A DNA stretch of 34,244 bases from assembly GCA_022340745.1 (NCBI GenBank), contig JAJDNL010000025.1:1-34244 (forward strand). Direction: 5' to 3'. The first letter of the stretch is position 1. The number at the start of each line of letters is the position of its first letter. The DNA comes from Deltaproteobacteria bacterium (GTDB lineage: Bacteria; Desulfobacterota; Syntrophobacteria; BM002). A model generated the notes under the pieces. The model saw only the letters and a program-made list of their open reading frames with translations. It did no database searches and had not been told where the DNA came from. The position numbers were made by a program, and so were the translations under genes. Of this stretch, positions 27,126 through 33,774 are shown in pieces.

Positions 27126-27170
27126 ATAAAAGTGAATATCGAAATCTAGTATCGACGGTATGTGGAGCTT

Positions 27171-28574
27171 ATGAGTAAGGAAAAGTCCATCAAAGCCAAG
27201 GTCCTTGTCGTTGATGACGAGCAGGGTGCGCGAGATGCTCTTCAGGTCATCCTTGAGGATGACTACGAAGTGACTACTGCAGCAAGTGGCCACGAGGCAA
27301 TTACCTATTGCCAAGATTCTCATTACGACCTTGTCTTTTTGGATGTTGCCATGCCTGAGATTGATGGCATCAAGACCCTCAAGAGGCTTCGCACCTTGGA
27401 TGAGCCCATGGACGTGGTTATGATTTCAGCTTCCGATAAAGCTGAACAAGCTGTGCAATCGATCAAACTCGGTGCCTATGACTACATCACCAAACCTTTC
27501 GAACCTGACGACATTCTCTCAGCTGTGGCTCGGGTTCTGGAAAAGCAGATTTTGCAAAGAGAAGTGCGTTATCTTCGCTCGGAAATAGCACACAGGTATG
27601 GAGAACTTGAGATCGTAAGCAAGGATCCAAGAATGTTGGATATCTTGCAACTTGTAAACAAGGTGGCAAGTACAAGCAGTTCGGTGCTGATTACCGGCGA
27701 GAGTGGTACCGGCAAAGAACTTATCGCCAGATCCCTTCACCAACACGGCAACCGCAATAAGGCCCCATTCGTGGCCATCAACTGTGCAGCTATTCCCAGC
27801 GAACTCATGGAGAGTGAGCTTTTCGGCCACGAAAAAGGCTCTTTCACAGGTGCCCACACCCGTAGCATCGGGAAGTTCGAACACGCCCACGGGGGCACTA
27901 TTTTTCTAGACGAGATTTCAGCGCTTCGTTCCGAGCTGCAAGCTAAACTCTTACGCGTTCTCCAAGACAAGGAGATTGTACGATTGGGCAGCAACCGGAC
28001 CATTAAAGTGGACGTCAGAATCGTGGCAGCCACCAATACAAATCTCGAAGAACTCATCGAAGCGGGAAGTTTTCGGAGCGATCTTTATTTTCGCCTTAAT
28101 GTAATTCCTGTCAAACTCCCCCCTCTGCGTGAGCGACACGGGGATGTAAAACTGTTGGCCCAACATTTCCTCAATAGATTTAATGTGTTGTTGACACGCG
28201 ACATCAAGGGGTTTACCGATAAAAGTTTGGACACCCTGGAGCGCTATCCCTGGCCTGGCAATATCCGCGAGTTAGAGAATTTGATTGAAAGGCTCGTCGT
28301 ACTTGGCTCCGACAGCGAACCGATCTCCTTTGCAGACCTGCCGCTGGATATTCTCCTGGATTCCAGCTTGACTCTAGAGACTCCCCCCCTGGGGGATGGA
28401 TTGCTTCAGGCGCGGGAGAATTTTGAAAGACAGTATATCCTGAAAGCATTGAAGAAAGCAGGGTGGAATCAGAGTGAGGCCGCCCGCATTCTGAACATTC
28501 ACCGCAATACCCTCATTCAGAAGATGAAATCCTTGGCAATCAAAGAAACACCCCCATCCAGCTCTCCCAAGTAA
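27171..28574 (+). CDS. NtrC-type sigma-54-dependent response regulator
   Basis: A 467-residue transcription activator. The receiver domain has the acidic pair VVDDE and the phosphorylation site D58 (FLDVAMPE), with the switch lysine in ITKPFEP. The AAA+ domain has Walker A GESGTGKE, the sigma-54 contact loop GSFTGAH (most members have GAFTGA), Walker B GGTIFLDEIS and the arginine-finger segment FRSDLYFRLNV. A Fis-type helix-turn-helix (NQSEAARILNIHRNTLIQKM) ends the protein. ATG at 27171 is preceded by GGAG, rather close; GTG at 27162 is also in frame. The sigma-54 promoters at 29135 and 33120 are natural targets. The cognate kinase may be the one at 31157-32980. Confidence 0.94.
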   Translation: MSKEKSIKAKVLVVDDEQGARDALQVILEDDYEVTTAASGHEAITYCQDSHYDLVFLDVAMPEIDGIKTLKRLRTLDEPMDVVMISASDKAEQAVQSIKLGAYDYITKPFEPDDILSAVARVLEKQILQREVRYLRSEIAHRYGELEIVSKDPRMLDILQLVNKVASTSSSVLITGESGTGKELIARSLHQHGNRNKAPFVAINCAAIPSELMESELFGHEKGSFTGAHTRSIGKFEHAHGGTIFLDEISALRSELQAKLLRVLQDKEIVRLGSNRTIKVDVRIVAATNTNLEELIEAGSFRSDLYFRLNVIPVKLPPLRERHGDVKLLAQHFLNRFNVLLTRDIKGFTDKSLDTLERYPWPGNIRELENLIERLVVLGSDSEPISFADLPLDILLDSSLTLETPPLGDGLLQARENFERQYILKALKKAGWNQSEAARILNIHRNTLIQKMKSLAIKETPPSSSPK

Positions 28575-28903: not shown

Positions 28904-28940
28904 TGCACATCTATCTGGGCAGTGCACATAATCATGTGCA
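28904..28940 (+). promoter_or_regulatory. Tandem candidate enhancer sites for the sigma-54 activator
   Basis: TGCACAT-AATC-ATGTGCA (28923-28940) is a perfect 18-bp palindrome. It resembles NtrC-type sites (TGCAC with a seven- or eight-base gap to GTGCA). A second, imperfect copy, TGCACATCTATCTGGGCA (28904-28921, 12 of 18 matches), lies just before it with a 19-base period. They are centred about 205 bases upstream of the sigma-54 promoter at 29135-29150. The element at 33004-33021 matches the palindrome at 14 of 18 positions. Other hairpins near here include GAGCTAT/ATAGCTC (28861-28887). Confidence 0.5.
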
Positions 28941-29134
28941 GAAGAGATGAGTTGTTGATATCTCAACACTATTTATGGGGTAGGGGTTGCCATTTGAAAG
29001 GAACGACTATCTTGGACACTGTGCAAACCTACTTGAGAGATAGGGATTTAACGTCCTTTTGTCTGAAAATAATTAAGTAATTATCTTAACAGCTTAGATG
29101 CAAATTTCCGCATGTTTCTCCGCTTTGCCCACTC

Positions 29135-29150
29135 TGGTACCGACCTTGCT
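29135..29150 (+). promoter_or_regulatory. Sigma-54 promoter upstream of the micropeptide gene
   Basis: TGGTAC-N5-TTGCT, with GG (-24) and GC (-12) exactly ten bases apart, fits the sigma-54 consensus TGGYRC-N5-TTGCW. Transcription would start near 29161 and leave a leader of about 61 bases before the ATG at 29222. A weaker sigma-70 possibility, TTGTCT-N17-TATCTT, lies further upstream at 29059-29087. Confidence 0.65.
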
Positions 29151-29221
29151 CTATATCGCCTCTATTCAATTCCAGAAAGGCGCACAAAATTTATGGGACG
29201 ATATGAGAGGAGGGAGGAGTT

Positions 29222-29323
29222 ATGAAAAAGGCAAAGAGGATTTTGATTCAACTTCTCGTCACGGGTAGCATTATTGCTATGTATGCACTACCGGCGCTAG
29301 CTCAAGGGGGCGGGGGGGCCTAA
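29222..29323 (+). CDS. Secreted 33-residue micropeptide (signal peptide plus QGGGGA)
   Basis: The reading frame is 33 codons. It starts MKKAKRILIQLL, runs through a hydrophobic core (VTGSIIAMYALP) to a standard signal-peptidase site ALA, and leaves only QGGGGA as the mature part before TAA. The ribosome site is very strong (GGGAGGAG at 29212-29219). A sigma-54 promoter lies 70 bases upstream and a strong terminator 33 bases downstream, so this is a complete single-gene unit. I know no family. Possible roles are a secreted signal that the neighbouring peptide-binding lipoprotein could sense, a small membrane peptide, or a translated leader. The tight framing by promoter, ribosome site and terminator makes chance unlikely. 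Confidence 0.7.
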   Translation: MKKAKRILIQLLVTGSIIAMYALPALAQGGGGA

Positions 29324-29355
29324 TTACGACCAACGTGTGGTTGGTTGGTGTGAGA

Positions 29356-29387
29356 AGCATAGTCCTGTTGGGCTATGCTTTTTTTTT
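29356..29387 (+). terminator. Strong rho-independent terminator after the micropeptide gene
   Basis: AGCATAGTCC (29356-29365) pairs with GGGCTATGCT (29370-29379) with a TGTT loop and one G-T pair, followed by a run of nine T residues up to 29387. It closes the micropeptide transcript before the promoter of the next gene. Confidence 0.93.
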
Positions 29388-29413
29388 GCAAACGCTCCGA
29401 AAGCTGGTATAGT
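29386..29413 (+). promoter_or_regulatory. Sigma-70 promoter for the peptide-binding lipoprotein gene
   Basis: TTGCAA (29386-29391), a 16-base spacer and TATAGT (29408-29413; five of six matches to TATAAT). Transcription would start near 29420, about 60 bases before the ATG at 29480. It overlaps the last bases of the terminator T-run, so the lipoprotein gene is insulated from the micropeptide transcript. Confidence 0.55.
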
Positions 29414-29479: not shown

Positions 29480-31084
29480 ATGAGAAGACTGCTCGTGTCA
29501 CTTATTGTCATACTAAGCTTTACCATCAGTTGTCAGCAAGAGCCTACCGGACCCCCCGAAAAAGTCCAGCCTGAAGTCAGGACAGGAGGCGTCTATCGAG
29601 CTCCCCTTCCCTGGAGTCCGAGAACCCTAGACCCTGCTTTTTCCACCGATATCTACGCTGTAACGCTTATTCAACAAATCTTTGACGGTTTGGTTCAATT
29701 TGACCAGAACCTCAATGTGGTACCGGCCCTGGCGACCAATTGGAAGGTCTCGTCTGATGGCCTGGTCTATACCTTTAACCTGAGGGACGATGCGAGCTTC
29801 CACAATGGCAGGGAAGTTACTGCCGAGGACTTTGTCTATTCATTCACTCGCATCCTGGATCCTAAAGAAGAGTCCAGTGCTCTTAGCTTTTTTCAAAGAG
29901 TCAAAGGGGCTGCTGCCTACCGCAATGGTGAGAGTAACGCAGTTGTGGGCCTGAGAGCGATAGACGCCCATACTTTGCAGATCACCATTAACGAACCCTT
30001 TGCACCATTTCTCTCCGTTTTGGCAATGATCAGTTCCAAGGTGGTTCCCAGAGAAGAGATCGAGCGACTGGGCAAGAAATTTGGCTCTCATCCAGTAGGC
30101 ACGGGACCTTTTCGCTTGGAGTCCTTTGAGGAGGACAAGATCATTCTCGGAGCCAATGAGGATTACTTCGGGGGTCGCCCCTATATAGATCGAGTCGTCT
30201 ACACCATTTATGCCGGAGCGCAACGTCAGAAGATCTTACAGGATTTTTTGGCAGATCGCCTGGAGGAAGCAGCTGTATTCGGAGCAGATCGAGAAAAAAT
30301 GGCCCAGACAACCGTCTATCAATTCGTCAGGAAGCCTAGTTTGAGCCTGCAGTTTTATGGAATGAATTGCACCGCTGCCGCTTTGAAAGATAAACGGGTA
30401 CGGCAAGCTCTTGGTTGGGCCATCAACAAAGAAGAAATCATTCGTGAGGTGTTCAAAAATCAGTTCATTCCAGCGGAAACAATCCTGCCGCCCGGCATGA
30501 CCGGGTATACTCCGGAAAACGCCGCCTACGGTTATGACCGAGAAAGGGCCAAAGAACTCCTGGCGGAGGCCGGGTATGGCCCAGCGCAAAAAAAGCTGTC
30601 ATTGACTCTCCTGTCTGCTTCGAAATCAAACGTGGCCCAGAAGGAATTGGCCATGGTGGCAGCGGACTTAGCCGCGGTGGGGGTTGAACTACAAATCAAG
30701 TATGAAACTGATTGGCCTACTTTTGAAGCGGCCCTAAACTCCGGCAGGTTTCAGTTGTATCGTTACTTCTGGTCTGCCGACATTCCAGATCCTGACGATT
30801 TCCTCAATGCAATTTGCGGATCCGACTCTCCCTACAACTTCATGCACTACAGCAACCCCAAAGTGGATCGCCTCCTCGCCCAGGCTCTGGAGGAAACCGA
30901 TATTATCAAACGGGTGAGGCTGTATCGGGAGGCAGAGGGCATGATTTTGGAAGATGCTCCGATGATTCCTTTTATGTATTGGGTCTTCGAGTCCGTGTTT
31001 CAACCTTATGTGAAGGGCTTGGAAATTAGCGCTCTTGGAAGCCCGTACATTCCTTTGAAAAAAATCTGGCTGGACAAACAGTAG
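29480..31084 (+). CDS. Peptide-binding lipoprotein, ABC transporter substrate-binding family 5 (OppA/DppA-like)
   Basis: A 534-residue lipoprotein. The signal peptide MRRLLVSLIVILSFTISC ends in a lipobox with the lipidated C18 (Thr at -3 is unusual). The family-5 fold is clear: IFDGLVQFDQNLNVVPALATNWKVSSDG, GREVTAEDFVYSFTRILDP, HPVGTGPFRLESF and KDKRVRQALGWAINKEEI. Members bind oligopeptides or nickel/dipeptides and usually work with permease and ATPase genes, but none is present here, so it may act as a sensor. It lies between the micropeptide gene and a sensor kinase. No strong ribosome site precedes the ATG. Confidence 0.93.
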   Translation: MRRLLVSLIVILSFTISCQQEPTGPPEKVQPEVRTGGVYRAPLPWSPRTLDPAFSTDIYAVTLIQQIFDGLVQFDQNLNVVPALATNWKVSSDGLVYTFNLRDDASFHNGREVTAEDFVYSFTRILDPKEESSALSFFQRVKGAAAYRNGESNAVVGLRAIDAHTLQITINEPFAPFLSVLAMISSKVVPREEIERLGKKFGSHPVGTGPFRLESFEEDKIILGANEDYFGGRPYIDRVVYTIYAGAQRQKILQDFLADRLEEAAVFGADREKMAQTTVYQFVRKPSLSLQFYGMNCTAAALKDKRVRQALGWAINKEEIIREVFKNQFIPAETILPPGMTGYTPENAAYGYDRERAKELLAEAGYGPAQKKLSLTLLSASKSNVAQKELAMVAADLAAVGVELQIKYETDWPTFEAALNSGRFQLYRYFWSADIPDPDDFLNAICGSDSPYNFMHYSNPKVDRLLAQALEETDIIKRVRLYREAEGMILEDAPMIPFMYWVFESVFQPYVKGLEISALGSPYIPLKKIWLDKQ

Positions 31085-31156: not shown

Positions 31157-32980
31157 ATGTCCTGGTTCCCCCGCAAAATAAGCCTCAAAACCCGGTTCAT
31201 GGTTGCCACCGGCGCGGTTGTCTTAGCACTGATGGTCAGTATCATTGTGCTTGTTGGGCACCGTTCCAGCCGGAGCATTAAACAGGAGGTAGAGGTACGC
31301 GGCTTCGCTGTGGCCCACAGTATCGCTGCTGTTTCCACTCATGCGCTCGTTACCTACGATTACATCACTTTAGAGCAGAATGCCGAGCAGGCCAGCCAGG
31401 GTGCTGACATCGCTTATGTCATCATACTTGATAAAGAGGAAAAGGTGGCAGCGTTTAGCGGTCACAGTGGCTGGCAAGGAAAATACTTGGATGATGCTGT
31501 GAACCGAAAAGCACTGGCTGCTAACACTGCGGTTATCCAGTCTGTTTTGTGGGAAGAAACTGGTGAGCGTGTAATGGACATCGCTGTGCCGGTTTTCATC
31601 CCCGGGTCCGAGATGAAGTGGGGCACGGTGCGAGTGGGGCTTTCACTTGAACGGATGTACTGGCAAATTCGACAGACCCAGCTGGTCCTGTTGGCAATAG
31701 GCACGGTGGCCCTTATTCTTGGACTGATTGGGGCCCGGGTCATGGCCGGGCGCATCACCAAGCCTTTGGGGCAAGTAGTTGAGGCAACCATCGCCGCTGC
31801 TGGGGGCGATCTGGGACAGCAACTAGATATTCACACCAGGGACGAGGTGGAGGATCTGGCAAACAATTTCAATACCATGATCAATGAGATCTTGGCACAG
31901 CGCCAGCAACTGGAGCAGCAGCTGGATGAGATCCTCGAGTTAAAAAGCTACAACGATATGATCTTGGCCTCCATGACCAATGGCCTCATAACCCTGGATC
32001 TGGAGGAACGGGTTGTTAGTGCCAATGGAACAGCTGCGTCCATACTGGGGCTGGAGGGTAGGCACTGGCAGGGTACAAGCTTCCGCAACCTATGGCCCGA
32101 GGGCAATCCATTTGTCCGAATGCTGGAAAAATGTTTGCACACACAGACCCCTTGCCGCAACCAGGAAATATCGTTGGAGAAAGGAGAAGGAGAGCAACGC
32201 ACTCTCATGATAAATACCTCATTTCTAGAGAATGGACGCAATGAAAAGATGGGGGTCCTGGTGGTGATCAACGACATTACCGAACTTAAGGTCTTGGAGG
32301 CGCGCATGCGGCAAAGTGATAGACTGGCAGCCCTTGGGACACTTTCAGCCGGACTCGCCCACGAAATCCGCAATCCGCTCTCTGCCATTAAAACCTTTGT
32401 CCAACTCTTGCCGAGAAAGCTCTCCAACCCGGCTTTTTTCGATAAATTCCAAATTACCGTTCCCCGCGAGCTCAACCGGATAAATGATCTGATAGAGGAC
32501 CTACTGGAACTGGCAAGGCCACCCAAGCTGAAGTTCAAAATGACCAATCTGGGTGATTGCCTGAAACAGGCGGTGGATCTTTATCGCGATAAACTCGAGG
32601 AGGCTGGCATCACATTCGAGATACACGAGGAAGGGGTTCTACCGGAGATTTGGGCTGATCAGGAACATTTGGTGCGAGCTTTTTCAAATCTTATCATGAA
32701 CGCCCAGCAGGCAATGATTGACGGTGGTACATTGATTATCGAGGTGGGACCACTCGAAGGTGATGTGGTAGTTCAGTTCAAAGACACCGGAGTTGGTATG
32801 GAGCAAACCACGAAAGACAATATATTCAATCCTTTCTTTACCACCAAAGACAGCGGTACGGGTCTTGGTCTGGCTATGACGCACAAAATTATCGAGGAGC
32901 ACGGCGGCGAAATCCAGGTTGAAAGTTCGGTTGGGCAGGGGACCACCTTTATCCTGACGTTGCCTGGTGTCCAAGGTTAA
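31157..32980 (+). CDS. Membrane sensor histidine kinase (extracytoplasmic region, HAMP, PAS, HisKA, HATPase)
   Basis: A 607-residue kinase. Membrane helix 1 is at about 14-34 and helix 2 at about 175-197. The 140-residue extracytoplasmic part between them carries an sCache-like signature (ADIAYVIILDKEEKVAAFSGHSGWQG). Then come HAMP (about 197-250), a coiled coil, a PAS domain (about 268-385), HisKA with the phosphorylated H402 (HEIRNPLSAIKTFVQLL) and a HATPase with N box (NLIMNAQQAM), G1 DTGVGM, F box FFTTK and G2 GTGLGLA. The HEIRNPL motif is of the NtrB type, which pairs with sigma-54 activators, so the regulator at 27171-28574 or the CheY-like protein at 33409 are the likely partners. It starts 73 bases after the lipoprotein stop. 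Confidence 0.94.
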   Translation: MSWFPRKISLKTRFMVATGAVVLALMVSIIVLVGHRSSRSIKQEVEVRGFAVAHSIAAVSTHALVTYDYITLEQNAEQASQGADIAYVIILDKEEKVAAFSGHSGWQGKYLDDAVNRKALAANTAVIQSVLWEETGERVMDIAVPVFIPGSEMKWGTVRVGLSLERMYWQIRQTQLVLLAIGTVALILGLIGARVMAGRITKPLGQVVEATIAAAGGDLGQQLDIHTRDEVEDLANNFNTMINEILAQRQQLEQQLDEILELKSYNDMILASMTNGLITLDLEERVVSANGTAASILGLEGRHWQGTSFRNLWPEGNPFVRMLEKCLHTQTPCRNQEISLEKGEGEQRTLMINTSFLENGRNEKMGVLVVINDITELKVLEARMRQSDRLAALGTLSAGLAHEIRNPLSAIKTFVQLLPRKLSNPAFFDKFQITVPRELNRINDLIEDLLELARPPKLKFKMTNLGDCLKQAVDLYRDKLEEAGITFEIHEEGVLPEIWADQEHLVRAFSNLIMNAQQAMIDGGTLIIEVGPLEGDVVVQFKDTGVGMEQTTKDNIFNPFFTTKDSGTGLGLAMTHKIIEEHGGEIQVESSVGQGTTFILTLPGVQG

Positions 32981-33003: not shown

Positions 33004-33021
33004 TGTACATGATCATAGGCA
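33004..33021 (+). promoter_or_regulatory. Candidate enhancer site for the second sigma-54 promoter
   Basis: TGTACATGATCATAGGCA agrees with the palindrome at 28923-28940 at 14 of 18 positions. Its centre is about 108 bases upstream of the sigma-54 promoter at 33120-33135. A half site TGCAC occurs at 33048-33052. Together with 28904-28940 this suggests one shared enhancer-binding protein. Confidence 0.45.
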
Positions 33022-33119: not shown

Positions 33120-33135
33120 TGGCACCATATTTGCT
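33120..33135 (+). promoter_or_regulatory. Sigma-54 promoter upstream of the CheY-like gene
   Basis: TGGCAC-N5-TTGCT is a perfect consensus match: GG at 33121-33122 and GC at 33133-33134, ten bases apart. Transcription would start near 33146. The next gene begins at 33409, so its mRNA would carry a leader of about 263 bases with strong secondary structure. Confidence 0.75.
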
Positions 33136-33408: not shown

Positions 33409-33774
33409 ATGGCTTGGCTGGATGGAGAAATAATGGTGGTGGACGATGATCAGGGGATTCTGGAGTCATTCGATGCCATGCTTGGAGACGATTATACCTT
33501 GGTGACCCTGGATAATGGATTTGAGGCTATTGAGTACATGAAATCTCACAAGCCGAAACTTATTTTTTTAGACATCAAGATGCCGGGCATGAATGGTATA
33601 GAGGTGCTCAAGAGACTGCGGCAAAGCAAGGTCGATGCGGCAGTAGTGATCGTCACTGCCACGACAAAAGCGCACTATGAGGAAGAGGCAGAAGAGTTGG
33701 GCATAACCGGCTATCTGCACAAACCGTTCGAAGTTGATGATGTGGAAGATATTACGAGACGAGTCCTCCATTGA
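33409..33774 (+). CDS. Single-domain CheY-like response regulator
   Basis: A 121-residue receiver domain with no output domain. The acidic cluster is VVDDD (10-14), the phosphorylation site D55 (FLDIKMPGMNG), the switch Thr is in IVTAT and the Lys in LHKPFEV. It most likely accepts phosphate from the kinase at 31157-32980 and passes it on, drains it, or acts by protein contact. GAGGAGG lies 6-8 bases before the ATG. A sigma-54 promoter and a long folded leader precede it, suggesting that both transcription and translation are controlled. Confidence 0.93.
   Translation: MAWLDGEIMVVDDDQGILESFDAMLGDDYTLVTLDNGFEAIEYMKSHKPKLIFLDIKMPGMNGIEVLKRLRQSKVDAAVVIVTATTKAHYEEEAEELGITGYLHKPFEVDDVEDITRRVLH

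Follow-up and report, generated by a model that had tools for sequence, protein, structure and literature searches.

Does a reading frame of only 33 codons, lying between a gene for a response regulator and a gene for a peptide-binding lipoprotein, encode a functional product, and what would that product act on? The frame is located in a 34,244-nucleotide stretch of DNA from a Deltaproteobacteria bacterium (contig JAJDNL010000025.1), which is called the window here. Its translation is MKKAKRILIQLLVTGSIIAMYALPALAQGGGGA, followed by the stop codon. A preliminary description had proposed a gene for a secreted peptide with a strong ribosome site, a sigma-54 promoter and a terminator of its own. 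Those gene-level claims held, and the ribosome-binding site is as described. The neighboring genes and their linkage to the peptide gene, the palindrome, the tandem copies and a second sigma-54 promoter had been overlooked. The features of the locus are shown in Table 1.

Table 1. Features of the peptide locus, in positions of the window.
Feature	Position	Strand	Evidence and remarks
NtrC-family response regulator	27162..28574	+	Pfam Response_reg 1.6e-31, Sigma54_activat 7.1e-72, HTH_8 1.3e-14
Predicted activator-binding array, TGCACATCTATCTGGGCA and TGCACATAATCATGTGCA	28904..28940	.	About 200 bp upstream of the sigma-54 promoter
Extra half-site TGTGCA	29020..29025	+	Conserved in the family alignment
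Sigma-54 promoter TGGTACCGACCTTGCT	29135..29150	+	Upstream of the peptide gene
Ribosome-binding site AGGAGG	29208..29213	+	8 nt 5' of the ATG; sequence inspection
Peptide gene	29222..29323	+	27-residue Sec-type leader ending in LPALA; predicted mature QGGGGA
3' untranslated hairpin (GACCAACG...GGTTGGTT) and intrinsic terminator with nine T	29324..29390	+	Ten-pair stem; fold and conservation
Sigma-70-type promoter TTGCAA-N16-TATAGT	29386..29413	+	Distinct from the peptide promoter, serves the binding-protein gene; scan, conserved
Orphan OppA/DppA-type peptide-binding lipoprotein	29480..31084	+	Pfam SBP_bac_5 9.3e-96; predicted peptide receptor
Membrane histidine kinase with periplasmic sCache, HAMP and PAS	31157..32980	+	Pfam sCache_3_2 2.4e-11, HisKA, HATPase_c
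Variant activator site TGTACATGATCATAGGCA	33004..33021	+	Before the receiver gene; conserved in the family; putative, assigned by eye
Second sigma-54 promoter TGGCACCATATTTGCT	33120..33135	+	Before the receiver gene
Single-domain response-regulator receiver protein	33409..33774	+	Pfam Response_reg 4.2e-27

Homologues of the frame were found by search in 18 of the 56 genomes of the same class. The homologous loci contain ORFs of 30-33 codons with a single architecture, namely a basic start, a hydrophobic stretch, YxLPVLA, xGGGGx and the stop codon, and most of them have a G-rich SD sequence. The scan of a one-genome-per-species collection returned peptide matches in Desulfobacterota only, including the cultured Desulfoferrobacter suflitae DRH4 (Syntrophobacteria) and Desulfobacteraceae, and a profile search added a third group from a different class, whose ends have five residues, EGGGY being one example. 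Most of the compared genomes are metagenome assemblies. When the peptide was searched against Pfam and NCBIfam at their curated cut-offs and against PHROGs by E-value, no convincing match was obtained, in keeping with the earlier expectation that annotation would miss such a short gene. There was also no match in the Rfam scan of the window or in the plasmid collection.

The orthologues were checked for frameshifts and for loss of the frame, and the frame was conserved. The reading frame, the start, the cleavage-site motif, the promoter and the terminator are kept across genera, families and classes, and the 33-codon ORF is therefore beyond chance and is a real gene. The comparison of synonymous and nonsynonymous differences (NG86), as suggested in the preliminary description, was run on nine genomes of the window's family and gave a pS of 0.51, a pN of 0.16 and a pN/pS of 0.315, which means that the peptide gene is under purifying selection. 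Moreover, the glycine codons vary across lineages, and selection therefore acts on the protein.

The conditional expression expected from a sigma-54 promoter is supported by the conservation of the site, which was found within 150 nt upstream of 27 of the 33 first-copy peptide genes, against a scan background of 0.055 hits per kb per strand. The promoter has the GG-N10-GC core in the TGGCAC-N5-TTGCW context, and an NtrC-type activator is linked to it. From the promoter geometry, the transcript would start near 29161 and end at ~29390, with a length of about 230 nt. The proposed terminator was not picked up by a simple terminator scan; it is supported by its conservation in the family and by the fold of the 3' stretch 29324-29395 at -32.1 kcal/mol (z = -6.0, with no shuffle equally good). 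Within this 3' UTR, GTGGTTGGTTGGTG (29334-29350) has hardly changed in the family, in contrast to the drifting 5' leader, and it may be an RNA element or a seed. A sigma-70-type promoter that belongs to the binding-protein gene follows the terminator and is likewise conserved, so that production of the receptor would precede that of the signal.

Every aligned genome of the window's family has kept the activator array, as have several genomes from a second family. The palindrome TGCACA-N6-TGTGCA is also present in five genomes of the family of Desulfoferrobacter (f5), where it is almost confined to the peptide locus. In the 3.9 Mb genome of the window itself, the 14-base form occurs just once when no mismatch is allowed; when the 12-base form was searched with up to one mismatch, only the peptide locus had a sigma-54 site in the right arrangement, and no further target was found. 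The linked NtrC-type protein, which combines a receiver, a sigma-54 AAA+ domain and a Fis-type HTH, is the predicted activator of the peptide promoter and probably binds this palindrome. The receiver gene has its sigma-54 promoter in every listed genome of the window's family and also in the f13 family, and two f13 genomes have an exact copy of that group's palindrome there. Beyond the peptide and receiver genes, no output of the regulator was found in the window's own genome.

In one genome (G284), two dispersed loci (L175:1501-1798 and L180:1150-1520) have the f13 palindrome and a sigma-54 site, followed by a short GGA-rich sequence that is apparently non-coding, and L180 ends in a clear terminator. 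These loci are candidate small RNAs of the same regulon, recalling Qrr, and leave room for an RNA output in this one genome.

The peptide transcript itself might act mainly as a sigma-54-dependent small RNA like Qrr or GlmY, with the peptide being secondary or the transcript having a dual function. Its length of about 230 nt, the strong terminator with a long T run and the conservation of GTGGTTGGTTGGTG in the family fit this explanation, as do the short, apparently non-coding transcripts expected from the two extra loci in G284 and a locus in G090, described below, with a sigma-54 site and a terminator but without a peptide ORF. We consider it rather unlikely, given a pN/pS of 0.315, a protein that is conserved across classes when the RNA is not, and an ORF that is tandem-duplicated inside a single transcript.

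The anatomy of the precursor was derived from an alignment of 38 distinct precursors, which gives the conservation of each position. P-4, A-1 and G+4 are invariant, and Y-7, G+2 and G+3 are nearly so. The signal peptidase I motif (P-4, V/A-3, A-1) is thus invariant or near-invariant, and Y at -7, Q/E at -18 and L at -2 are well conserved in the leader. The most variable position is +1 (3.0 bits), and the final residue also varies. The predicted mature pieces, QGGGGA here and CGGGGP, EGGGY and others elsewhere, have variable ends around invariant glycines, with masses of 434-606 Da across the homologues (445 Da for QGGGGA). Such a piece is too short for an enzyme, as had been pointed out before. 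The reading as a secreted-peptide gene is consistent with the conserved family, the pN/pS and the Sec-type leader, for which cleavage is predicted by the motif. A lipoprotein precursor with a lipobox was rejected as a general explanation: position +1 is variable, being Gln here and Cys in part of the family only, and a lipobox does not typically have Pro at -4. A second, degenerate-looking precursor (MKKIAIELLIIAATVVASVAPVLACYGDW...) was seen in G436 (L156:1788-1868), and no kinase, binding protein or sigma-54 site was found beside it.

In several lineages, two to four tandem copies of the peptide gene stand behind a single promoter. One genome (G026) has three identical precursors in tandem. 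In three others (G027, G028 and G029), the leaders of the tandem copies share 13, 15 and 12 of 24 residues, respectively, with no difference in the mature parts; within each genome the mature peptide is the same. Between genomes, pairs with comparably divergent leaders share the mature part in 4 of 127 cases, a comparison of phylogenetically non-independent pairs that is used as an argument and not as a probability. Because the tandem copies keep identical mature parts despite their diverged leaders, the simplest cause would be selection that holds each genome to a single mature peptide fitting a single receptor. The conservation of the leader beside the cut would then mostly reflect processing. 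The preliminary description had left the choice between the released signal peptide and the Gly-rich hexapeptide as the active species; the tandem copies disfavor the former, and the evidence favors the mature peptide as the active part.

The ligand could still be a released fragment of the leader around YALPVLA, in the way that enterococcal pheromones derive from lipoprotein signal sequences. The strong conservation from Y-7 to A-1 fits this idea, and the binding protein of the locus resembles PrgZ, which binds such a peptide. But the leader is near-identical in all species and so carries no species-specific information, and in the tandem copies it is the mature part that holds the identity. 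We therefore regard a leader-derived ligand as very unlikely.

The relatives of the binding protein by sequence and fold are MppA, OppA, DppA, the glutathione-binding protein, PrgZ and the B. subtilis OppA with a Phr pentapeptide. Judged from its sequence and a structure model with a mean pLDDT of 86, it groups with the peptide binders. There is no transporter or permease gene in the cluster. The cluster of the NtrC-type activator, the OppA-like binder, the sCache kinase and the lone receiver recurs beside the peptide in three groups. The linkage was seen in the 18 loci of the class, in further named loci and in another class, with the NtrC regulator linked and the receiver protein following the kinase in most loci. 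In three loci of Desulfobacterales (L071, L072 and L075), the regulator is encoded on the opposite strand, past the kinase gene, and thus the linkage survives rearrangement. The distance from the peptide gene to the binding-protein gene is usually 150-400 bp, and about 780 bp in L074:5673-6540. As in pheromone systems, a ribosomal precursor with an export signal and a short predicted mature peptide is linked to genes for a predicted receptor and a regulator.

A different explanation is that the locus is an envelope or nutrient sensor. The binder would then detect peptides from outside or some other solute, with the small peptide serving as an effector, such as a decoy ligand or an envelope peptide, and not as a signal. 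The binding-protein family has many ligands, and pairs of NtrC-type regulators and kinases are usually nutrient sensors. Against this, the cluster has no transporter, the peptide and the receiver are the only evident targets of the regulator, and the peptides linked to the peptide binder are receptor-sized and variable at their ends. We found this explanation fairly improbable.

The peptide is bound to its neighbors in distribution as well. The kinase was found in 21 of the 56 genomes of the class, including all 18 with the peptide, and 35 genomes had neither. The apparent absence of the peptide in G004, G005 and G010 was judged not to be real, since contig ends or an N gap account for it; in G005 the promoter, the ribosome site and MKKAKR are visible before the N run. 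G005 is assembled as a single contig, and its kinase is located over 1 Mb from the N-ended peptide region (L147:4193-6523, L060:9560-9760), which suggests a scaffolding error. In a phylum sample of 395 genomes, the kinase was present in 13 and the peptide in 11; in G379, one of the two kinase-only genomes, the peptide is cut at a contig end. The linkage of the peptide gene to the binder and the kinase is fixed. G090 (L166:2242-2752) has a kinase and a regulator that are 36 and 50% identical to those of the window, separated by a stretch with a sigma-54 site (2469) and a hairpin resembling a terminator, and neither a binding protein nor a recognizable peptide ORF was found at this locus. The pair without the binding protein is also without the peptide, and therefore the peptide goes with the binding protein.

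This bears on a further possibility, that the peptide is not cleaved and stays in the inner membrane as a feedback regulator of the kinase, like MgrB for PhoQ. A small membrane peptide under the control of a response regulator and beside a kinase would fit, and so would the conserved Y at -7, Q/E at -18 and L at -2. But G090 keeps the kinase and regulator and lacks both the binding protein and the peptide, the signal peptidase I motif is near-invariant with the most variable residue directly after it, and the mature parts are identical within a genome while the leaders diverge. We consider a membrane-bound regulator unlikely.

We propose, with a probability of roughly 0.63, that the peptide gene encodes an autoregulated peptide signal that is sensed in the periplasm. 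The 33-residue precursor would be exported by Sec, and signal peptidase is predicted to cut after LPALA and to free QGGGGA into the periplasm. The peptide would be small enough to exit through porins; the predicted mature peptides have masses around their classical limit of about 600 Da and fall within the size range of the ligands of such peptide binders. The OppA-type lipoprotein would bind the peptide in the periplasm and present it to the sCache histidine kinase, which would in turn control the NtrC-type regulator. This regulator would bind TGCACA-N6-TGTGCA and, together with sigma-54, switch on the peptide gene as feedback and the gene of the receiver protein. A positive sign of the feedback is favored. 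We infer the cleavage site, the binding of the peptide, the control of the kinase and the passage between cells. Several points count against the signal model: binding proteins of family 5 also bind nickel complexes, opines and sugars, the search of the window's own genome gave no output regulon apart from the receiver gene, and the leader is conserved at -7 and -2 beyond the needs of a plain signal peptide. The action of the peptide could also be confined to the periplasm of the producing cell.

A broader reading is peptide quorum sensing in Gram-negative bacteria that has no dedicated exporter, processing enzyme or importer. In this reading a Gly-rich peptide, Sec-cleaved, porin-sized and with species-specific ends, would be recognized in the periplasm by the OppA-type receptor together with the kinase. 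Via sigma-54 it would control its own synthesis and also, in certain lineages, small RNAs. We hold this reading tentatively, at slightly less than even odds.

Peptide signaling is textbook knowledge in Gram-positive bacteria and poorly documented in Gram-negatives. A search of the open-access literature returned no description of this circuit in Gram-negatives and no characterized signal peptide for sulfate-reducing and syntrophic Desulfobacterota. The locus provides a complete candidate circuit, the exact sequences of its peptides and a cultured host, D. suflitae DRH4, for which the predicted mature peptide is CGGGGR. It also suggests that genes of about 30 codons, hidden among annotated genes, can be central to a signaling system.

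Several known systems share parts of this arrangement. As in Agr and ComD/E of Gram-positive bacteria, the genes of a peptide, a kinase and a regulator are clustered and feedback is likely; the locus differs in having no dedicated exporter or processing gene, an added periplasmic binder, sigma-54/NtrC control and a Gram-negative host. The cCF10/PrgZ system of Enterococcus and the Phr/OppA system also combine a short secreted peptide with an SBP_bac_5 binder, and PrgZ and OppA-Phr are structural matches of the binding protein. However, cCF10 and the Phr peptides are taken up by the cell and have their receptors in the cytoplasm, whereas here the cluster has no permease and a histidine kinase is linked. 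Peptides of the MgrB/SafA type are likewise encoded by very short genes controlled by a response regulator beside a two-component system, but the peptide described here is predicted to be cut to 5-7 residues and has a peptide binder in its cluster.

In the LuxPQ-LuxU-LuxO-Qrr system of Vibrio, a periplasmic solute-binding protein, a membrane kinase and an NtrC-type sigma-54 regulator lead to a short transcript. The locus has the same kinds of parts, with a binder, a membrane kinase and an NtrC-type regulator that would drive a short transcript from a sigma-54 promoter. However, LuxP belongs to another binding-protein family and binds AI-2, a small sugar-derived molecule, whereas the binder here is of the SBP_bac_5 type and its predicted ligand is a ribosomal peptide. 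LuxQ is a hybrid kinase with a LuxU relay and the kinase here is a non-hybrid sCache kinase. The sigma-54 output in Vibrio consists of small RNAs, and here it would be a secreted peptide and a receiver. On the sequence evidence, the locus is analogous to LuxPQ-LuxO and not a member of its family.
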